Virus record (IMG/VR): IMGVR_UViG_3300010400_000036
Coordinates: 1-35,311 of that record
Source of the DNA: a virus
Length of the DNA: 35,311 bases
Reading direction: 5' to 3' (one strand)
The position numbers and the translations under genes were made by a program. Under the pieces are notes generated by a model. It searched no databases. It was given only the letters and a program-made list of their open reading frames with translations, and had not been told where the DNA came from. Positions 5,807 to 15,200 of this stretch are shown piece after piece; the first letter of the stretch is position 1; each line of letters starts with the position of its first letter.

Positions 5807-6555
5807 ATCTGCCGCAGAACTACGTCCAGACGCCGCCCGACCGCCTCGTGGTGGCGATCCAGTTCTACGATGGCGACCAAGCGGCAGCCCTGCGCCTCGC
5901 TCGCCTCCTGTCTGACATCGAGCTCCGCCGCCGCGACGACGTGATCCTGGCCTTCGCCCGCCGCTTCGACTGCCCGCCATCGGACGAGCTGCAGCGGACG
6001 CTTCTATACTGCGGCCGCAAGTTCCCGGTCATGGACCTGCCTTCAAAGCGCGAAGGCGTTGGCCACCCGAACGGCTGCAACGAATTGTGGTCGAGCACGG
6101 TGGAGCAGCTATCCGATGCATGGCAGGCCGGCAGCCTCAACGTGTGCTCGGTCTTCACGGTGGAGCCCGACGGCTGCCCGCTCTCGGTGGACTGGATCGA
6201 TCGGTTGCACGTGGAACACCAGCGCGCGTTGCGGGCGGGCAAACGAGTAAGCGGATGCCTGATTGAGTCGCCAATACCGCATGTTAACGGAACGCTGATT
6301 GCTCACCTGTCCATGTGGCACGACCGCCTGTCACTGCACCGGACGCCACCGGCCCAAGCGTTCGATCTTTTCCATGCCGCCGTATTGACGCAGGAATGCC
6401 AGCCAACCACGCTCATAAAGAACCTATACGGAGCTACGGGGTATAGCGTCGGCGCTCTGGGCGCCCTTGCGAAAGAGACGGCGTGGATAACGTCAACGAA
6501 AGATGACAGCGCCGTTAAATGGGCCGAAGAAACATTGGTACAATCTTCGAAATGA
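5803..6555 (+). CDS. Glycosyltransferase-like phage protein, 250 aa
   Basis: The start is TTG 5803, overlapping the previous stop; the frame is open further upstream, but the homology-like part begins here (MNLPQNYVQTPPDRLVVAIQ). The N-terminal AIQFYDGDQAAALRLARLLS, RRRDDVILAFARRFDCPPS and the later GHPNGCNELW match a recurrent phage protein pattern of GT-A (Rossmann-like) glycosyltransferase type, in which a strand-loop-helix binds the sugar nucleotide. I do not see a clean second DxD motif, so activity is uncertain. The last 100 codons have visibly lower GC than the neighbours, and a GTTAAC-containing half-palindrome lies at 6280-6291. Its product may modify DNA, virion proteins or host surface sugars. 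Confidence 0.6.
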   Translation: MNLPQNYVQTPPDRLVVAIQFYDGDQAAALRLARLLSDIELRRRDDVILAFARRFDCPPSDELQRTLLYCGRKFPVMDLPSKREGVGHPNGCNELWSSTVEQLSDAWQAGSLNVCSVFTVEPDGCPLSVDWIDRLHVEHQRALRAGKRVSGCLIESPIPHVNGTLIAHLSMWHDRLSLHRTPPAQAFDLFHAAVLTQECQPTTLIKNLYGATGYSVGALGALAKETAWITSTKDDSAVKWAEETLVQSSK

Positions 6556-7199
6556 CAGTCAGCCCAGGGGGCGCCAGGGTTACATGTGCATTCGATGGAT
6601 GCGGGCGCGAATCCAGGTGTGCTGGACTCTGCGCGGGCCACTACACTCAACTGAGTCGAGGCCAGGCGCTGATGACGCTCCGACCGCGACGCCAGGGTCT
6701 CATTAGAGATCGGAGGTCATTCCCCGACCGCTTCTGGTCGAAGGTCGATAAGGAGAACGGACCGTTCCATCCAGTGCACGGTAAGTGCTGGATCTGGCTA
6801 GGCGCGACCACCCACAACGGATACGGGAACTTTCAGTGCCTGTCGTGGAGGCATGAGGCGGCCAGCACCCGCGCGCACCGGATCGCGTGGGAATTGGAGC
6901 ACGGCGCTCCTCCCGCAGAAGTGCTGGTCCTGCACCACTGCGACAACCGCAAGTGCGCCAGGCCGTCCCATCTGTTTCTTGGTACGGCATCTGACAATTC
7001 AACCGACATGGCCATAAAGGGAAGAACGACATCGCCGCTTAATGACGAAAGCGTGCTCGCCATCCTGGCCTCGCCGGAACGATCCGACGTACTCGCGGAG
7101 CGCTTCGGCGTCGGTGATGGCACGATCCAGAATATCCGCGCTGGCCGCACATGGGGTCATCTCCGGGCGGTTCGCCATCTCGACGATAGCCCTGGGTAG
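6552..7199 (+). CDS. HNH homing endonuclease with zinc-binding N-terminus and C-terminal HTH, 215 aa
   Basis: ATG 6552 overlaps the upstream stop. Residues 12-30 hold a Cys4/His cluster (CAFDGC, then CxxxC and H30) seen in many phage HNH proteins. The HNH_3-type core follows: CWIWLGATTHNGYGNF (79-94), AHRIAWELEHG (108-118) and VLHHCDNRKCARPSHLFLGT (126-145), with metal/catalytic histidines at 109, 128-129 and 140. Residues 163-205 form an HTH (DESVLAILASPERSDVLAERFG...TIQNIRAGRTW) like those that aid target recognition in homing endonucleases. It sits between virion genes and the terminases, a common place for free-standing homing endonucleases, which cut intron-free alleles of nearby genes. 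Base composition is more AT-rich than its surroundings, which suggests recent transfer. Confidence 0.9.
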   Translation: MTVSPGGARVTCAFDGCGRESRCAGLCAGHYTQLSRGQALMTLRPRRQGLIRDRRSFPDRFWSKVDKENGPFHPVHGKCWIWLGATTHNGYGNFQCLSWRHEAASTRAHRIAWELEHGAPPAEVLVLHHCDNRKCARPSHLFLGTASDNSTDMAIKGRTTSPLNDESVLAILASPERSDVLAERFGVGDGTIQNIRAGRTWGHLRAVRHLDDSPG

Positions 7200-7214
7200 T
7201 CGGACCGCCCGCTG

Positions 7215-7797: not shown

Positions 7798-8075
7798 GCA
7801 AGCGCACCCGACCCAAGATCGTACCGCCGGCCTGGGCCTGGCTGAACGACCATGACGATCTGGTTGCCATCGCCGCCGCCGAGGTGGACGCCATGTTCCC
7901 AGATACGCCTCAGATCGCGGCCCCGCCGGGCGCGTTTCGCTTTCTTGGGCTGCTGATGAAGCCGTGGCCAGAGCCGCCGCCACCGACCAACGAAACCGTC
8001 ACCGAAGGTTGGCGCATCATCCGGGGCCTGCCGCCGCGCCCGGAGCCCAGGCCGGTCAGAACGGTCCGCGATTGA
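7794..8075 (+). CDS. Hypothetical protein, 93 aa
   Basis: GTG 7794 overlaps the previous stop (GTGA), and its own stop overlaps TTG 8072 (TTGA). The product has a basic N-terminus (MSKRTRPKIV), a central predicted helix (DDLVAIAAAEVDAMF), a hydrophobic segment (GAFRFLGLLM) and a Pro/Arg-rich tail. I recognise no domain. It is translationally locked between the acidic helical protein and a glycosyltransferase, which suggests co-expression with the modification genes. Confidence 0.6.
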   Translation: MSKRTRPKIVPPAWAWLNDHDDLVAIAAAEVDAMFPDTPQIAAPPGAFRFLGLLMKPWPEPPPPTNETVTEGWRIIRGLPPRPEPRPVRTVRD

Positions 8076-8920
8076 CCCGCCACTACGTCACCGCCTGCAA
8101 GGCCGACCAACTCCAGGTGCTCCTGGCCTCGATGGAGCGCCACTGCCAGCCCTTCCTGCTGCACGTGCTCGCCTGGGACTGGCCATGGCCGAGCTACCAC
8201 CCCGCACACACGCACATCGTCAGCCGCCACGCCTTCCTAGCGCGCAACCCCAGCTTCGCCCCCGAGCGCCTGCCCCCGCCGCCCCGCACCCGCATCAACG
8301 AGGTCTGCACGGCCCGCTGGCGCTTCCTGGCGGACCTGCTGGCGGACACCGGGCAGCCGGCCACCCTGGTCGATGGCGACCTGTGGTTCATGAGCGACCC
8401 CGCGCCCGTGTTCGAGGAGATCGGATCGGCCCCCATGGCGGTCACGCCTCACGGTTTCGCGCCCGCCGCGGCTGGCCTGCCAGGGGTGACGCTGGAGAGC
8501 CACGGGAAATACGGCGCCTACAATTCCGCCTTCACCTACCTGGCCAGCCTGCCAGCAGCGGAGCGCCTCGCTGCCCTCAACTGGGAGTGGTCGCACACGG
8601 AGCTTGGCACGCTTCCTGACGGGCGCGTGGTCTTCGGCGATCAGGGCTGGCTTGAACAGGTGGCTGGCGAGGTCGGCGCGCACGTCATCGCCGCGCCTGT
8701 GAACATCGGCCCATGGAACGTACACACCCAGGTCCTCCGCCAGGCCCACGACGGGACGATGTTCTTCGGTGGCCGCCCTCTCATCGCCTACCACTTTTCG
8801 TCATTCCGGCCCGGGCCCGGCGGGCAACTCGCTGATGCTCCCTACGCAGTCACTGCAGAGCAGGGGCGGATCCTGTACGAGCCGTACTGGGCGGCGCTCG
8901 CCGCGGTCGGCATCCGTTAA
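8072..8920 (+). CDS. Nucleotide-diphospho-sugar (GT-A type) glycosyltransferase, 282 aa
   Basis: The start is TTG 8072 in a TTGA overlap; the frame is open upstream, but the conserved part starts MTRHYVTACKADQLQVLLAS. Features of GT-A glycosyltransferases: the N-terminal 'TACKADQL..LLASMERHC' strand-helix, and DGD at 101-103 in ATLVDGDLWFMSDPAPVFEE, the DxD motif that binds the metal and UDP/GDP-sugar. Later come the segments DQGWLEQV and NIGPWNV and a conserved AYHFSSFR near the C-terminus. The family (GT8/GT24-like, nucleotide-diphospho-sugar transferase) is frequent in phages that glycosylate virion proteins or modified DNA. The stop codon TAA lies inside the palindrome at 8913-8924. The target substrate cannot be read from sequence. 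Confidence 0.8.
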   Translation: MTRHYVTACKADQLQVLLASMERHCQPFLLHVLAWDWPWPSYHPAHTHIVSRHAFLARNPSFAPERLPPPPRTRINEVCTARWRFLADLLADTGQPATLVDGDLWFMSDPAPVFEEIGSAPMAVTPHGFAPAAAGLPGVTLESHGKYGAYNSAFTYLASLPAAERLAALNWEWSHTELGTLPDGRVVFGDQGWLEQVAGEVGAHVIAAPVNIGPWNVHTQVLRQAHDGTMFFGGRPLIAYHFSSFRPGPGGQLADAPYAVTAEQGRILYEPYWAALAAVGIR

Positions 8921-8924
8921 CGGA
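8913..8924. promoter_or_regulatory. Perfect 12-bp palindrome TCCGTTAACGGA (copy 3)
   Basis: It overlaps the stop codon of the glycosyltransferase (TAA 8918-8920) and precedes the RHH-like gene. It is one of a set with 7215 and 7446; a degenerate copy follows at 8945-8956. Confidence 0.7.
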
Positions 8925-8944
8925 AGTGTGGGCGACGGCAGAAT

Positions 8945-8956
8945 GCCGTTAACATT
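8945..8956. promoter_or_regulatory. Degenerate copy of the GTTAAC palindrome (GCCGTTAACATT)
   Basis: It keeps the central CCGTTAAC and loses the right arm. It starts 32 bp after copy 3 and ends 2 bp before the GTG start of the RHH-like gene, so it would cover its ribosome binding region. Confidence 0.5.
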
Positions 8957-8958
8957 AA

Positions 8959-9186
8959 GTGGTGCCCCGGAAGAGCAAGCTCGGTCGCGTCGACGGCGTC
9001 CCCATGGTGGCGTGGCGGCCGTCCGCGGCAGAGCGCGAGGCCATGCTCGCCGCAGCGGGGGCGATTTCTGTTAACGAATTCAGCCGGCGGCGCACGCTGG
9101 CGGGACTGCCGATACGCGAGGACGATAAGCCTCAGGGCCGCGAGGAATCAGGGGTTCGCGTGGTCTACGACGAGGACGGTCCCTGA
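8959..9186 (+). CDS. Ribbon-helix-helix-like small DNA-binding protein, 75 aa
   Basis: The start is GTG 8959 (a second GTG follows at 8962) without a good Shine-Dalgarno; the stop overlaps the ATG of the small terminase gene (TGATG). Residues 17-50 read MVAWRPSAAEREAMLAAAGA then ISVNEFSRRRTLAGLP. This is the usual pattern of a MobC/CopG-like RHH domain: strand, helix with 'EREAM--AA', turn, then 'S-NEF-RR--L' helix. RHH proteins bind palindromic operators as dimers of dimers. It lies between copies of the GTTAAC palindrome and could be the factor that binds them, an inference. It may alternatively assist terminase at a packaging site. Confidence 0.6.
   Translation: MVPRKSKLGRVDGVPMVAWRPSAAEREAMLAAAGAISVNEFSRRRTLAGLPIREDDKPQGREESGVRVVYDEDGP
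9067..9078. promoter_or_regulatory. Degenerate copy of the GTTAAC palindrome (TCTGTTAACGAA)
   Basis: It matches TCCGTTAACGGA at 10 of 12 positions and stays symmetrical around GTTAAC. It lies inside the RHH-like gene. Confidence 0.5.
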
Positions 9187-9797
9187 TGGCGAGCAAGGGC
9201 GACGATTCCGTTAGCAGAAAAGGAACTGGTCCGTTAACGGCCAGGCAGGCTCAATTCGTCGCCGAGTACATCATCGACCTCAACCAGGCCCAGGCAGCGA
9301 TCCGGGCGGGATTCAGCCCTCGATCGGCACGATCATGCGCCGCACGGATGATGACGTTTGCAAACGTTGCAGCGGCGATATCAGAGGCCAAGAGGTCCCG
9401 GGCCAAGGCCACTGGAATCACCCAGGATCGCGTCCTGGAGGAACTGGGCTTGCTGGCGTTCTCGGACGTCGGGCACTACGAACTCGACCCGGAAACTGGA
9501 AAGTTCAAGGCTGCCGCTGACGCCCCCGCCGGCGCCCGGCGCGCAATCTCGTCGATCAAGTACCGGCGGATCGTCGACAGCGAAGGGACAGTGACGTACG
9601 AGGCCGAGGTCAAACTGTGGGACAAGCCCGGACCGCTGAAGCTCGCCGGTCGCCATGTGGGATTGTTCCCCGATCGTGTCGAGGTCTCCGGGCCAAACGG
9701 CGGCCCACTTGAGATCCGTTCCGCCAAGGATCTGTCGTCGGGCGAGCGCCGCAAGCGGATCGCCGAGTTGGCGTCCAAGCGCGCGCCCAGGGGCTGA
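9186..9797 (+). CDS. terS: Terminase small subunit, 203 aa
   Basis: ATG 9186 overlaps the previous stop. After an 18-residue Ser/Lys-rich head, residues 19-60 carry the terminase_2-type N-terminal HTH region (LTARQAQFVAEYIIDLNQAQ, AAIRAGFSPRSARSCAARMM), the DNA-recognition element. The central part has the conserved helix GITQDRVLEELGLLAFSDVG, then a beta region (ISSIKYRRIVDSEGTVTYEA) that in this family contributes to oligomerisation and portal/large-subunit contact. The end is basic (GERRKRIAELASKRAPRG). It recognises the packaging site and stimulates the large subunit. Two GTTAAC-like sites lie within its first codons (9207-9241). The gap to the large subunit gene is only 7 nt. Confidence 0.93.
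   Translation: MASKGDDSVSRKGTGPLTARQAQFVAEYIIDLNQAQAAIRAGFSPRSARSCAARMMTFANVAAAISEAKRSRAKATGITQDRVLEELGLLAFSDVGHYELDPETGKFKAAADAPAGARRAISSIKYRRIVDSEGTVTYEAEVKLWDKPGPLKLAGRHVGLFPDRVEVSGPNGGPLEIRSAKDLSSGERRKRIAELASKRAPRG
9207..9241. promoter_or_regulatory. Two further GTTAAC-type half/near palindromes inside terS
   Basis: TCCGTTAGCAGA (9207-9218, 10 of 12 matches) and TCCGTTAACGGC (9230-9241, 11 of 12) start 23 bp apart, about two helical turns. They are in the 5' end of the small terminase gene, where pac or cos recognition sites are often found in other phages. Confidence 0.55.
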
Positions 9798-9804
9798 CCA
9801 TTCG

Positions 9805-11190
9805 ATGTCGGCCGCGCCGGCAGCGGGCCTGACCGAGGCCGAGGAGATCGAGCTTCTCGAGCTTCTTGAAGCCGAAGACCGAGCTCCTAGCCTTGACGCG
9901 TTCATCCGACGAATCAGCCCGCACCATCCGCCGCCGCGCCACCTGGCGCCGGTGATCGAAGCATTGGAGCGCGCCAGGTCCGCGCCGCAGCAGGTCTGCA
10001 TCTCGATGCCCCCCGGGCACGCGAAGACCACGCTGGTTGCCCACGCAATCGCCTGGTGGCTCTCGATGTACCCGGCCGACACCAACGGCTACGTCTCCTA
10101 CAATGCCACGCAGGCGATGAGCAAGAGCGTCATCGCACGCCAGCTCGCGCAGGCGGCTGGGATCCAAATCTCGGACGAGACCAACAATAAAGGCGAGTGG
10201 AGGACCAAAGAGGGCGGCGGCCTGCTGGCGTGCGGGATCGGAGGCGGGCTCACGGGACAGCGGATCAAGGGCCTGCTGTTCGTCGATGACCCGTTCAAGG
10301 ACCCGAGCGACGCCTATTCCACGGCGCGCCGGGATGCGGTTGAGGACTGGTTTCAGACCGTCGCCATGACCCGCCTCGAGGACGCGTCGGTCTTCGTGAT
10401 CCACACGCGGTGGCACGAGGACGACCTGATCGGCCGCCTGGCGAAGAAAGAGGGCTGGACGATCATAAACCTCCCCGCCCTCGCCGAGGAAAACGATCCG
10501 CTCGGTAGAGAGCCCGGCGAGGCGCTGTGGCCAGAGATGTTCCCGGCCGAGAAGCTGGAGACGATCCGCACCGACCGCGGCGTTTACGTCTTCGCCGCCC
10601 TCTACCAGGGCGCGCCGCGTCCGCGAGGGGGGACGATCTTCGGAGAGCCACACTACTATGACCCGGCGTCAACCTCGTTCGAGGGCTGCATCATCATCAT
10701 CGCCGCCGACCCGGCCGCATCGGAAAAGACGTCAGCGGATTGGAGTGCGGCTGTGGTCCTGTCGGTTCGCGGGAGCGGGCACAAGGCCCTAGGTTACGTC
10801 AGGCACGTATACCGCAAGCAGGTCACCATCCCGGACTTCGTCGATGCGCTCATGTCGCTGCAACAGACATGGGGCAACGCCGGTATCAAGGTCGAGTCGG
10901 TAGGCGGATTCAAGGCGGTCCCGCAGATGCTACGAAGGCTCGGGCTCGAAAGGGTCGAGGACATCATCCCAGAGGGCGACAAGTTCACGCGTGCCCAGCG
11001 AGCCGCGGCGGCGTGGAACTCGGGCCGCCTCCTGGTACCAAGCGACGCGCCGCCGTGGCTGGGCCCGTTTCTGGATGAGGTCCAGAAGTTCACGGGCGTG
11101 AAGGACAAGCAAGACGATCAGGTCGATGTGATCGCGCACGCATGGAACAGTCTCGACGAGCAGCGCCCGAGTTGGGAGAGCGTACTCTAG
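9805..11190 (+). CDS. terL: Terminase large subunit (ATPase and nuclease), 461 aa
   Basis: ATG 9805 with a GGGG-type upstream site; the open frame extends back to 9655 but overlaps terS. The ATPase domain shows Walker A SMPPGHAKTT (67-76), Walker B LLFVDD (157-162) and the downstream FVIHTRWHEDDL (197-208), all typical of phage packaging ATPases. The nuclease domain starts at about 298 with IIAADPAASEKTSADWSA (Asp302 as the likely metal ligand) and ends with DDQVDVIAHAW (437-447). The two domains cut and translocate DNA into the prohead. Length is normal for the family. The stop at 11188-11190 overlaps the stop of the convergent portal gene through the palindrome CTAG. Confidence 0.95.
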   Translation: MSAAPAAGLTEAEEIELLELLEAEDRAPSLDAFIRRISPHHPPPRHLAPVIEALERARSAPQQVCISMPPGHAKTTLVAHAIAWWLSMYPADTNGYVSYNATQAMSKSVIARQLAQAAGIQISDETNNKGEWRTKEGGGLLACGIGGGLTGQRIKGLLFVDDPFKDPSDAYSTARRDAVEDWFQTVAMTRLEDASVFVIHTRWHEDDLIGRLAKKEGWTIINLPALAEENDPLGREPGEALWPEMFPAEKLETIRTDRGVYVFAALYQGAPRPRGGTIFGEPHYYDPASTSFEGCIIIIAADPAASEKTSADWSAAVVLSVRGSGHKALGYVRHVYRKQVTIPDFVDALMSLQQTWGNAGIKVESVGGFKAVPQMLRRLGLERVEDIIPEGDKFTRAQRAAAAWNSGRLLVPSDAPPWLGPFLDEVQKFTGVKDKQDDQVDVIAHAWNSLDEQRPSWESVL

Positions 11191-12704
11191 GCGGCGGGCG
11201 CCGGTTCCTGGTTGCCCGGCGCGCCCGGGCTAGGCGCCGGCGGCGGGTTATCCCGCAACTCCTGCGCCATCTCTTCGATCAGTTTCAGATCGGCGTCTTC
11301 CTGCGTCTTGTACGTGCCGCGCGCCTTGTTCTCGCGGGCCACGCCCGCCGCCGTGATGGCGCCCATGTCGTAATAGATCTTGTCCGTCTGCGCCCAGAGA
11401 TTCGCGATCTCGGCGGCCTGCTTGGGATCCATCTGGCGCAGTGGGCAGAAGGCGCGGACGTAGTTCGCCGGCATCCTTCCGAGCACCGAACGAATCAGGA
11501 TCTCGTCGATGCGGTCGAGTCGCGGGGCGAGGTACGTGTCCCGCATCGCATCGACGGCGTCGTCCCAGTTCTGCTGGCTGTGCTCACCGGTTGATTGCAG
11601 GCCGCCAGGCGACTCTCCGAACAGAGTCGTGATCGGCATGCCGGCCGAGACCGCCACCGTGAGCGCGAGCCGGTCCATGACCTTCTCGACGCCCGAGAAC
11701 GTCATCTCTCGGCGCTCCCACTTGTCGCCGCCGACGCCGTCCTTGCCGCCGTCGAGCACGAGCGTCTTCCAGACGCCCTTACTTTGCTGCGCGACCATCA
11801 GCCGCTTCTCGATCAGGGCTTCGCCGTTCGGCTTGGCGAGCTCCTCGCGGAGCCGGTCCATGTAGTGGACGTCCACGGTGGCCTCATAGACCATCGTCGC
11901 AGCGGCCGCCTCGGCGGCGTCGAAACCCTTCACGGTCTCGATCACGCGCTGAAGGATGCTGTCGTCCCAGCCGTTGTTCATGCTGTGGTTCTTCACGAAG
12001 TAGGGCGTGAGGCGTCCGCCGAAGACCACGACGCGCGACCAGTGGACCTCTACCGCCGACTCGGCGATCCGGTAAGTGAGCGGCTTTCCGAAGTTCGGGC
12101 TGCTTAGATCCTTGTCGATCTTGCCACTTGGGTCGATGCGCCAACGATCGATGACCTGGAGGTTCAACAGCGACCCTTTGCGGATGGTGTTGAGGTCGAG
12201 CGGCGTCAACATGGCCTGCGGGCTGGTCTGTCCCTTTATGACCATCAGGATCACGGAGCCGCCGTATAGTCGACCCCAGGTCGCTGCCTCCGTCACTTTC
12301 TCTTTGACGCCGAAGTTCTTCTCGGCGGTCTCGACGGCCTTGACGCTGTTCTGGTCGTCGTCTACGCCGTCCCACGTGCGCGTCCAGCCGGTGCGCATCA
12401 TGTCGCCGACCGGGAGGTCTACGATGCGTCCGGCGAGGCCGGACGCCGAGTAGGTTTCGTCCAAGTCGAAACGGTTCAACTGCGTGCGGCAATAGTGGGA
12501 GCCGGTCCGCTTGTCGCGCCGAGTGCCTAGGCCGGCGATCACGTTGATGAGGCCGTCCATTCCCTGGGCCCGGCCAGCCAGGCGATCGAGGCGTTCCAGG
12601 GGCGTCATTTCCTGGGGCGCTGGGCCGGCGTCGCCCAGCGGTATGACCGTATGGGAGAGGGCCTCGGCGGCGGTCTTGGCGTTGCGTGGCCTCGGCTTCT
12701 TCAC
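11187..12704 (-). CDS. Phage portal protein, DUF1073 (Acb1-like family name) type, 505 aa
   Basis: It is encoded on the minus strand, unlike the head and tail genes around it. The start is GTG (12704-12702) with GAAAGG 7 nt upstream. Recognition segments are AGLAGRIVDLPVGDMMRTGW, AATWGRLYGGSVILMVIKG, MPITTLFGESPGGLQSTGEH and ENKARGTYKTQEDADLK, all characteristic of DUF1073-family portals. The length (about 500) is also typical. The portal forms the dodecameric ring at one capsid vertex through which DNA enters and to which the neck binds. The C-terminal Pro/Ala tail is low-complexity. Its stop overlaps the terL stop by 4 nt, and it follows a small HTH gene by 12 nt, so it forms a separate operon. 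Confidence 0.92.
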   Translation of the reverse strand: MKKPRPRNAKTAAEALSHTVIPLGDAGPAPQEMTPLERLDRLAGRAQGMDGLINVIAGLGTRRDKRTGSHYCRTQLNRFDLDETYSASGLAGRIVDLPVGDMMRTGWTRTWDGVDDDQNSVKAVETAEKNFGVKEKVTEAATWGRLYGGSVILMVIKGQTSPQAMLTPLDLNTIRKGSLLNLQVIDRWRIDPSGKIDKDLSSPNFGKPLTYRIAESAVEVHWSRVVVFGGRLTPYFVKNHSMNNGWDDSILQRVIETVKGFDAAEAAAATMVYEATVDVHYMDRLREELAKPNGEALIEKRLMVAQQSKGVWKTLVLDGGKDGVGGDKWERREMTFSGVEKVMDRLALTVAVSAGMPITTLFGESPGGLQSTGEHSQQNWDDAVDAMRDTYLAPRLDRIDEILIRSVLGRMPANYVRAFCPLRQMDPKQAAEIANLWAQTDKIYYDMGAITAAGVARENKARGTYKTQEDADLKLIEEMAQELRDNPPPAPSPGAPGNQEPAPAA

Positions 12705-12716
12705 GGGTGCCTTTCG

Positions 12717-12887
12717 TCAGCGCCAGCCGCGCCGCTTTATCTCGTTCTCGAGCGCGTGGCCGGCCGCGCCGCGAACAGGCTTGCCGTCGAGCGCCTTGGC
12801 GACCGTCTTGCGGTCGGCGCGGGTGATGCGGGCCAGCGTGCCGATCCGGTTCCTGCGGGCGTCGTCATCACGCTTCGTCGGGTTCAT
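12717..12887 (-). CDS. Small helix-turn-helix regulator upstream of portal, 56 aa
   Basis: The frame is open to 13187, but the conserved-looking part begins at ATG 12887 (MNPTKRDDDARRN) because the longer version would run far into the minor head gene. Residues 15-40 (IGTLARITRADRKTVAKALD then GKPVRG) resemble the HTH of LacI-like or phage replication/repressor proteins, where 'A-x(3)-R-x-T-V-xxAL-G' is the recognition motif. The protein ends 12 nt before the portal start, so both are co-transcribed. It could control its own and portal expression through the palindromes in the divergent region. Confidence 0.6.
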   Translation of the reverse strand: MNPTKRDDDARRNRIGTLARITRADRKTVAKALDGKPVRGAAGHALENEIKRRGWR

Positions 12888-13001
12888 CTTGTCCAATGAG
12901 TCTATCAACGCCTCGGCAAACCCCCAGAATCGAGGGATTGATCCCAGGAAATCCGCGGCGGGTTTCGTTGAGTTTCCCGCGGCCGTGTCAGCGTTATTGC
13001 A
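12888..13001. promoter_or_regulatory. Divergent regulatory region between HTH/portal and minor head genes
   Basis: These 114 bp separate oppositely oriented genes and hold two inverted repeats. GGGAT-TG-ATCCC is at 12934-12945. CCGCGGCGGG (12953-12962) faces CCCGCGG (12976-12982). TTGAGT (12969-12974) with GTTATT (12992-12997) 17 bp later could be a plus-strand promoter; a transcript from it would begin near 13004 and favour ATG 13023 as the start of the minor head gene. The promoter assignment is weak; the inverted repeats are plain. Confidence 0.45.
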
Positions 13002-13925
13002 GTGGCGTTTTCCCTCATCGCGATGCTCGTCGGCCAGCTGCCGGAGCCGGCACGCCTGAAGTCCAAGCGTGCGCGCCCGGTCCGGCCGAGCCACCGAGCC
13101 GAGCTGAACTACCTGGCCGATTTGCTTGTCGTGGTCGAAGCATGCCGCCGAGCCGGTGACGAGGTTGCCGCAGGCCTGGCGGTCCATTGGGACGAGACCA
13201 CGCCGGCCGTCGACGCGCGCCGCACCGCAGGCGATGCGCCGCCCCCGCCGTCTGGCGCTCCGCTGCCATCCGTGCCCAGCCTGGATGTGCTCCTCGAGCA
13301 GGCCGCGCGCCGATTCGGGAACATCGAGGCCGTGGCCGATCGGCTGGCCAATCTGGCCGCGCGGCGCACGCTAGGCGCGGTCGACGATGAGCTGACCAAA
13401 AACATCGCGAGCGCGGTCGGCGTCGATATCAGCAGTTACCTCGGCACCGACACCGAGATCGGCGCCGCCATGGCCGAGGCCGTCGAGGCGAACGTCGCGC
13501 TGATCAAGTCCATCCCGACGCAGTACCTGGGCGGCGTGCGCGAGACGGTCGGCAAGGCGTTCGCCGCAGGGGAGCGGTTCGAGTCCGTCGCCAAGAGAAT
13601 CGAGCACATCGGCGATGTGACCGAGTCGCGCGCGAAGCTGATCGCGAGGGACCAGATCAGCAAGATGAACGCGGCCTTCAACGAGGTTCGACAGGTCAGC
13701 GTCGGCATCACTCACTACACGTGGTCGACGTCGCATGACGAGCGCGTCCGCAAGTCGCACGCCGATCTGAATGGGCACGACTTCGCGTGGAAGAACCCAC
13801 CCGAGGTCGACGGCGAGCGCGCGAACCCGGGCGAGCCCGTGAATTGCCGCTGCGTCGCGATACCGGTGATCTCACTGGCCGAAGAGCCGGCGCCCGGCGA
13901 GACCGAGGAAAGGCAGGCCGCGTAG
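13002..13925 (+). CDS. Minor head protein, Mu gpF / SPP1 gp7-like, 307 aa
   Basis: The frame opens at GTG 13002; ATG 13023 (MLVGQLPEPARLKSKRARPV) is an equally likely start. Neither has a good Shine-Dalgarno. The C-terminal third carries the Mu F-like domain: ARDQISKMNAAFNEVRQVSV, then HYTWSTSHDERVRKSHADLN, GHDFAWKNPP and PGEPVNCRCVAIPVI with the conserved final 'NCRC'. The N-terminal half is helical. Proteins of this family attach to the portal/DNA end inside the capsid and are needed for infectious heads. It restarts the plus-strand morphogenesis run after the inverted portal operon. Its stop adjoins the next ATG. Confidence 0.88.
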   Translation: MAFSLIAMLVGQLPEPARLKSKRARPVRPSHRAELNYLADLLVVVEACRRAGDEVAAGLAVHWDETTPAVDARRTAGDAPPPPSGAPLPSVPSLDVLLEQAARRFGNIEAVADRLANLAARRTLGAVDDELTKNIASAVGVDISSYLGTDTEIGAAMAEAVEANVALIKSIPTQYLGGVRETVGKAFAAGERFESVAKRIEHIGDVTESRAKLIARDQISKMNAAFNEVRQVSVGITHYTWSTSHDERVRKSHADLNGHDFAWKNPPEVDGERANPGEPVNCRCVAIPVISLAEEPAPGETEERQAA

Positions 13926-15200
13926 ATGGCCAACCTTCTCAAGGTCATCGCGCGCGACGCCGCTGGCCGCGCGACGCGCTGCCAGGTCGCGCGTGACGAG
14001 GGCATCAAGGTCGGCGACATCACGATCACGGGGCTCGGATACATGATCGCCGAGAACGTCCCGGTCGCGCGCACCGGCGTTCAGGAATACTCGGCGCTCG
14101 AGCTTGGCGTGGACGCCAGCATGAAGACGATCCGGCTGTACCGCCCGCCGGAGGAAGTCTTCTCGGCGGCGTCGCTGGCATCTCTCGATCGCAAACCGAT
14201 CACCTTCTACCACCCCGAGTACGGTGTCGATTCGTCGAACTGGACGCGCGAGGCCAAGGGCCGCGTCGAGACGCCCGCACAGGACGGCGACTTCCTCGAC
14301 GTCGGCCGCTTCGAGGTGAACGACAAGAGCACCGTGGAGGCCGTCGCGTTCGGCGCGAAGGAGGTCAGCTGCGGCTACTCGTTCACGCTCGACATGACCT
14401 CAGGCGTCGCGCCATCGGGCGAGGCCTACGACGGTGTGCAGCGGAACATCGAGCACAACCACGTCGCGATCGTTTACGCGGGCCGGTGCGGCGCGGGCTG
14501 CGCGATCGGCGATTGCGCCTGCAGCGGCAGCCCGAGACCGAACAACGACAACCATACGGAGAACACCATGAAGATCGACATCGGCGGAGTCAGCATCGAG
14601 CTCGACGACAAGGTCGCGCAGACCGTCAAGTCCGCGCATGACACCGCGGTCAAGGGCTTGACCGCATCGGCGGACGCCGCGACGAAGCGCGCCACGGACG
14701 CCGAGGCGGCCCTCAAGGATCAGGGCGAGGCGATGAAGAAACTCGCCGCCGACCACAAGGTCGCGCTCGACGCCGAGAGGGCGAAGGTGCTGACGCCCGA
14801 GCAACAGGCGACCCTCGTGGGCGAGTTGGCCGCCGTCGCGTCCGACGCCAAGGCGGTCCTGCCGGAGTTCGACGCGAAGGGCAAGACCGCCGCCGCGATC
14901 CGCGTCGATGTGCTGACGTCGATACTGGCCGAGGACGGCGCGCTCAAGGGCACGGTCTCGAAGATCCTGGGCGGCGTCGAGCCGGCGAAGGCCAGCGACG
15001 TTCGCGTCCTGGCGGCGTTCGACACGGTCGTCGCGACCGCCGGCGACCGGGACGATGGCGCCGAGCACGAGCGCGAGCTCAGGGACGCGCTGGCCGGCGA
15101 CAAGAAGAACAGCGGCGGCAAGCCGCAGAAGCTCTCGGGCCGCGCCCTCATGGTCGCGCGCTCGCGCGGGCAGGTCGACCGCAACACCGCGCGGCAGTAG
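13926..15200 (+). CDS. DUF2213-type prohead protease/scaffold precursor, 424 aa
   Basis: ATG 13926 directly follows the stop of the minor head gene. The N-terminal domain (about 1-200) has the DUF2213 pattern: NVPVARTGVQEYSALELGV, SLASLDRKPITFYHPEYGVD, EVSCGYSFTLDMTSGVAPSG and HNHVAIVYAGRCG, which is thought to represent a herpesvirus-assemblin-like prohead protease. A short Cys/Gly linker (CGAGCAIGDCACSG) is followed by a long Ala/Lys/Glu-rich helical region (about 215-400), typical of an internal scaffold, and a basic C-terminus. The fusion of protease and scaffold, with a second in-frame start at 14568, is the lambda C/Nu3-like logic. It lies directly before cement and capsid genes, as expected. 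Confidence 0.85.
   Translation: MANLLKVIARDAAGRATRCQVARDEGIKVGDITITGLGYMIAENVPVARTGVQEYSALELGVDASMKTIRLYRPPEEVFSAASLASLDRKPITFYHPEYGVDSSNWTREAKGRVETPAQDGDFLDVGRFEVNDKSTVEAVAFGAKEVSCGYSFTLDMTSGVAPSGEAYDGVQRNIEHNHVAIVYAGRCGAGCAIGDCACSGSPRPNNDNHTENTMKIDIGGVSIELDDKVAQTVKSAHDTAVKGLTASADAATKRATDAEAALKDQGEAMKKLAADHKVALDAERAKVLTPEQQATLVGELAAVASDAKAVLPEFDAKGKTAAAIRVDVLTSILAEDGALKGTVSKILGGVEPAKASDVRVLAAFDTVVATAGDRDDGAEHERELRDALAGDKKNSGGKPQKLSGRALMVARSRGQVDRNTARQ
14557..14561 (+). promoter_or_regulatory. Internal ribosome binding site CGGAG within the protease gene
   Basis: CGGAG ends 6 nt before an in-frame ATG (14568) at the exact boundary of the protease and scaffold halves, a context suited to internal initiation. 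Confidence 0.6.
14568..15200 (+). CDS. Nested in-frame scaffolding protein, 210 aa
   Basis: This is the same reading frame as the protease precursor, starting at ATG 14568 with CGGAG upstream. The product starts MKIDIGGVSIELDDKVAQTV, followed by a long helical, charged region (DAATKRATDAEAALKDQGEA, KKLAADHKVALDAERAKV) and a basic tail (KLSGRALMVARSRG). This matches the composition of capsid scaffolds, whose basic C-terminus binds the capsid protein. The linker before it is Asn/His-rich (RPNNDNHTEN) and non-conserved in look. Separate production of scaffold from an internal start is known for lambda Nu3. Direct evidence here is limited to the start context. Confidence 0.6.
   Translation: MKIDIGGVSIELDDKVAQTVKSAHDTAVKGLTASADAATKRATDAEAALKDQGEAMKKLAADHKVALDAERAKVLTPEQQATLVGELAAVASDAKAVLPEFDAKGKTAAAIRVDVLTSILAEDGALKGTVSKILGGVEPAKASDVRVLAAFDTVVATAGDRDDGAEHERELRDALAGDKKNSGGKPQKLSGRALMVARSRGQVDRNTARQ

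Follow-up and report, generated by a model that had tools for sequence, protein, structure and literature searches.

Comparison across viral contigs indicates that a portal gene inverted relative to its packaging and head-gene neighbors is a real, clade-wide and settled arrangement, which would represent a new form of separately transcribed portal with a putative regulator of its own. The window, by which we mean the whole stretch of DNA that was analyzed, is a linear IMG/VR record of 35,311 bp from a phage with a contractile tail, as judged from tail sheath and baseplate matches. The plus strand carries its terL, MuF, protease, cement and major capsid genes, and the minus strand the portal gene and a 56-residue helix-turn-helix (HTH) open reading frame. 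The original prediction had described this layout, together with a CTAG stop overlap and a 114-bp divergent region, and both the gene matches and the coordinates bear it out:

9808-11190, plus strand: terL, large terminase subunit (phrog_38, E 2e-90; PF17289/PF03237)
11187-12704, minus strand: portal (DUF1073 / Phage_portal_3), 505 aa, GTG start (PF06381, E 3e-84; phrog_146, E 2e-107)
12717-12887, minus strand: 56-aa solitary LacI-headpiece-like HTH gene (family HMM, alignment, profile match, three-helix model)
12888-13001, no strand: divergent region between HTH and MuF, 114 bp, putative control region
12934-12945, no strand: near-palindrome GGGATTGATCCC, 12 bp, candidate operator (common to the window and L003)
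13002-13925, plus strand: MuF-type minor head gene, GTG start, first gene of the plus-strand head operon (phrog_324, E 4e-67; PF04233)
13926-15200, plus strand: head maturation protease (DUF2213), second gene of the head operon (phrog_530, E 2e-73)

The stops of terL and the portal gene share four nucleotides, CTAG, at 11187-11190, and a full terS gene lies beside terL. Elsewhere in the window there is an HNH endonuclease gene upstream of the small terminase gene (6519-7199; phrog_3593, E 3e-28) and, in an open frame at the contig's left end, a 36-bp unit present twice in tandem (260-332; 81% matches).

The inverted gene encodes a DUF1073 / Phage_portal_3 protein, scoring 283 bits against PF06381 where the Pfam gathering cut-off is 33.8, with residues 82-442 matching model positions 4-356 of 357. 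It is oriented opposite to both flanking plus-strand genes, terL and MuF, and its dN/dS of 0.13 against the homolog in L003 shows purifying selection. The window record holds one portal copy, as does each of 11 out of 11 contigs of 31-85 kb, and a hidden second copy elsewhere is thereby ruled out. Two inverted portals of other phages are longer, at about 690-710 aa, owing to a C-terminal extension (L020:11947-14088 and L104:5330-7393); a P-loop-like motif, GGPKHGKTT, occurs in the extension of L020. Neither locus yielded a MuF gene, and an ATPase-like or kinase-like tail on a portal would be unusual.

Public viral contigs were scanned with the portal, terL and derived alignments, followed by six-frame HMM mapping. 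The portal was found opposite to terL and/or MuF in 15 distinct phages, namely the window and 14 others (L003, L004, L011, L016, L017, L019, L020, L021, L084, L097, L101, L104, L175 and L176); L002, the same phage as L003, is not counted separately. Where computed, identity to the window portal among the inverted phages is 31-87%, and the portals of L021 and L173 are identical. At about 95 other DUF1073-portal loci, sister phages included, the portal is on the strand of terL or MuF; this figure covers loci with a readable neighbor, some of which belong to the same phage. In four annotated phages that were spot-checked (phiPLPE, CP-T1, Ssp-JY39 and CASP1), the portal and the gene preceding it share a strand, and that preceding gene is annotated as terL in three of them. 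Relatives were not found in bacterial genome contigs, and an integrase is not a common trait, occurring in only 2 of 12 records. The stop overlap between terL and portal recurs in most inverted phages: as CTAG in the window, L003, L004, L011, L019 and L084, as TTAG in L017, and as a 4-nt overlap by a crude gene map in L175 and L176. The two stops are a few nucleotides apart without overlap in L016 and L021, and the portal of L020 sits 2.6 kb further on.

All inverted phages found are metagenome contigs, with no isolate among them, as might be expected if the arrangement had been produced by assembly or binning. Such an origin is extremely improbable given the number of distinct phages that share the arrangement, the conservation of the CTAG overlap, and the identity over 4,099 nt of the separate assemblies L002 and L003; assembly error as such is refuted by independent contigs with repeated junctions. 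The prediction of a settled arrangement is upheld by these junctions, and the original refuting condition, an inversion confined to this assembly, is contradicted by gene order in the DUF1073 relatives.

In the portal tree, a clade of the inverted portals alone is rejected (AU p 1e-57), whereas the set enlarged by L075, L095 and L098 is a single clade (AU p 0.71). These three phages have plus-strand portals nested beside the inverted L019 and L097. The portal DNA of L093 (plus strand; same phage as L075) matches in reverse both L019 at 5820-7208 (77%) and L097 at 8028-9409 of the reverse-complemented locus (74%), whereas terL, MuF and protease align forward, leaving the flanks collinear. One inversion followed by one reversion would be the simplest account and fits best; two inversions are a possible alternative history. 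The occurrence of both orientations among such close relatives (L019/L097 versus L093) could also be read as a programmed invertible segment, in which the portal flips within the population as a switch. We consider this very unlikely, since no inverted repeats flanking the portal gene rise above shuffle level at 16 loci, orientation follows the portal tree, and repeated assemblies of one phage share the same portal orientation. The window and L003 are 87% identical in the portal and 56% in terL, and L018 pairs a closely related terL with a plus-strand phrog_113 portal. Because the histories of terL and portal differ, their junction is a recombination point.

The 56-aa open reading frame is shown to be a real gene by its homologs in 11 other phages of the clade, found with an HMM built from four members, and by its dN/dS of 0.29 against L003. 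It lies directly upstream of the inverted portal in eight phages (the window, L003, L021, L175, L176, L020, L104 and L101). Its stop is 12 nt from the portal start, with GAAAGG, a likely ribosome-binding site, between them in the window and also in L003; given this spacing, the two genes are likely carried on one mRNA. In L097 the HTH gene is beyond MuF, so that MuF intervenes between it and the portal, and in L075, L095 and L098, with plus-strand portals, it is still a minus-strand gene, located between MuF and protease. The gene is missing from 5 of the 15 inverted phages (L004, L011, L016, L017 and L084), and L019, whose contig ends, counts neither way. All eight long contigs having the gene carry one clear copy at the divergent-gap site, one of them with an extra weak partial match. 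The family was not found near non-inverted portals outside the clade or in 50,697 annotated phage records; weak LacI-like matches occur at L087 and L090, two other loci whose terL is related but where there is no DUF1073 portal. The constant feature of the HTH gene is that it diverges from whichever gene, MuF or protease, comes first in the plus-strand head operon, with or without the portal attached. Since five inverted phages do without it, MuF intervenes in L097, and the plus-portal sisters retain it on the minus strand, its constant partner is the divergent promoter region and not the portal. L016 has, in place of the HTH gene, a short plus-strand open reading frame in its divergent gap (about 11120-11280). 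The encoded product is similar to an Arc-like ribbon-helix-helix repressor (phrog_582, E 0.075) and is possibly another regulator at the same position.

The HTH proteins are 53-69 aa long and end after the headpiece, and the C-terminal ligand-binding/dimerization domain of LacI is not present in the family. The family profile, compared with PDB sequences, matches CcpA over the headpiece (E 1e-4); single members match LacI weakly, with a best Pfam LacI E of 0.004. An AlphaFold model has three helices (mean pLDDT 84), and its best fold matches are LacI-family proteins, individually non-significant (E > 0.7). Two members also weakly match DUF1441 and phrog_141, with HTH domains of the small terminase subunit type (E 0.1-0.2), as would befit a DNA-binding accessory for packaging and not a transcription regulator. 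This role is improbable: the family profile and the fold matches prefer LacI headpieces, and the window already has its full terS.

A sigma70 consensus scan of the window alone returned no site. Just before the HTH start, the minus strand has a weak promoter-like site that would give a short leader (TTCTGG-N19-TAGACT, p 0.13). Across the clade, sigma70-like sites before the minus-strand unit are enriched over shuffles (Fisher p about 1e-6, with one phage per lineage and the -10 element located 6-11 nt from the start of the unit), a combined p that is optimistic because the 6-11 nt range was chosen with some of the sequences already in view. Under the same test, control starts gave 0.41-0.89 for terL, cement and capsid and 0.085 for the first plus-strand gene; L097, L095 and L098 give the strongest individual signals. 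A portal in a separate minus-strand transcription unit is the best supported of our conclusions on mechanism. The original prediction of separate portal control by a local HTH protein holds, on this clade-wide promoter signal, as far as the transcription unit is concerned, but the constant partner of that protein lies elsewhere, as described above.

The original prediction also noted inverted repeats in the divergent region. GGGATTGATCCC in the window has the counterpart GGGATTAATCCC in L003, and GGGATYRATCCC is common to both; this near-palindrome is absent from L004 and L011, neither of which has the HTH gene. The best imperfect palindrome in the window gap is, however, no better than shuffles (p 0.21), nor is the test across all lineages significant (p 0.22), and the window repeats were rejected as proof of an operator. 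L176 has a perfect 18-bp palindrome (p 0.01), with related imperfect palindromes at the corresponding position of L021 and L175; candidate operators are convincing in one subgroup only.

Taken together, we propose that the portal gene alone flipped in the ancestor of this clade of uncultured phages with DUF1073-type portals. It would thereby have joined a minus-strand unit transcribed from a sigma70-like promoter of its own, located in the divergent gap before the head operon. Most lineages would have this unit as a two-gene operon that encodes first a solitary LacI-headpiece protein of 53-64 aa and then the portal. We consider it most likely that the LacI-like protein recognizes operators in this gap, where it would regulate its own promoter and perhaps also the facing head-operon promoter, and portal synthesis would thereby be uncoupled from that of terL and capsid in time or amount. 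We give this account as a whole a probability of roughly one half. In its favor are the 15 inverted phages, the recurrent stop overlap, the single portal copy, the HTH gene directly upstream of the portal in eight phages and its confinement to the clade, the LacI headpiece match, the palindromes of L176, L021 and L175, and the promoter signal; against it are the inverted phages without the gene, its staying with the gap in L097, L075, L095 and L098, the non-significant palindromes across lineages, and the non-significant promoter of the window.

The arrangement might instead be a neutral relic: an accidental inversion, fixed once and tolerated because the minus-strand HTH gene already possessed a promoter whose transcription extends by chance into the portal. 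The HTH protein would then serve itself or the facing head operon and not portal dosage, and the arrangement would lack a special function. The tie of the HTH gene to the divergent gap, the five inverted phages that do without it, and a reversion to plus that proved possible make this a serious contender, if short of even odds. The inversion nevertheless persisted as portal identity fell to about 31-45% and as recombination swapped terL, and only one reverted group was found. Within our preferred account of a separately controlled portal, regulation of the divergent gap by the LacI-like protein is likely, and the persistence of the HTH gene at the gap in L097 and in the reverted lineage is a reason to count the head-operon side among its targets as well. 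Control of portal dosage by the HTH protein is a further, inferred step. It is a tentative suggestion that a solitary LacI-headpiece regulator encoded with the portal tunes the supply of portal, and so its incorporation per capsid, independently of late head-gene transcription. Antisense portal RNA from plus-strand transcription, also foreseen in the original prediction, is plausible because nothing separates the overlapping terL and portal stops.

A phage makes a dozen portal subunits for several hundred of the capsid protein, and how and when it does so has usually been examined within one late operon. The arrangement described here may allow the phage separate control of portal production, and it shows that the terminase-portal-head gene order is breakable at one gene and that the break can be kept for a long time. 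Because the clade supplies natural variants (inverted with HTH, inverted without HTH, and reverted to plus), the role of separate portal transcription is directly testable.

Known systems share individual elements of this arrangement. The nearest annotated portal relative, MW202455 (Caudoviricetes sp., Manatee Spring), has a portal 39% identical over 94% of its length and the order terminase, portal, minor capsid, head genes, but all of these are on the plus strand, there is no HTH gene, and TerL is from a distant branch. The HTH protein resembles the LacI family (CcpA, PurR, FruR) in its profile match to the CcpA headpiece and its three-helix fold, and differs in having no ligand-binding or dimerization domain and in being encoded beside a phage portal gene. 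The phiPLPE / CP-T1 group comprises dwarf myoviruses with a DUF1073 portal (PMC3391216), here related at 32-33% identity, and has a divergently starting minus-strand block precisely at the border of portal and head genes, which is where the portal-HTH unit lies in the inverted clade:

L177:3993-5549, minus strand: minus-strand block of phiPLPE
L178:3984-5680, minus strand: minus-strand block of CP-T1

In that group, however, the portal is on the plus strand with terL, the minus-strand block consists of 5-7 small genes whose function is not known, and the HTH family was not found in the blocks of phiPLPE and CP-T1; such a block may have been the origin of the divergent promoter. No description of a singly inverted portal gene was found in the open-access texts searched. 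The late promoters of P2 are divergent and Ogr-activated, this distant activator controlling all late units. In P2-like phages, terminase P and portal Q are on the strand opposite to O-N-M-L (gene tables, PMC3091744). The likeness lies in a portal read from the other strand than the capsid genes, in a late unit of its own in P2. The P2 portal nevertheless travels with the terminase ATPase gene, whereas here the portal alone has flipped away from terL, which is convergent with it across the 4-nt stop overlap rather than co-transcribed; and in place of a distant Ogr there is a local HTH gene attached to the portal. With these differences, we regard the divergent terminase-portal operon of P2 as the nearest precedent.
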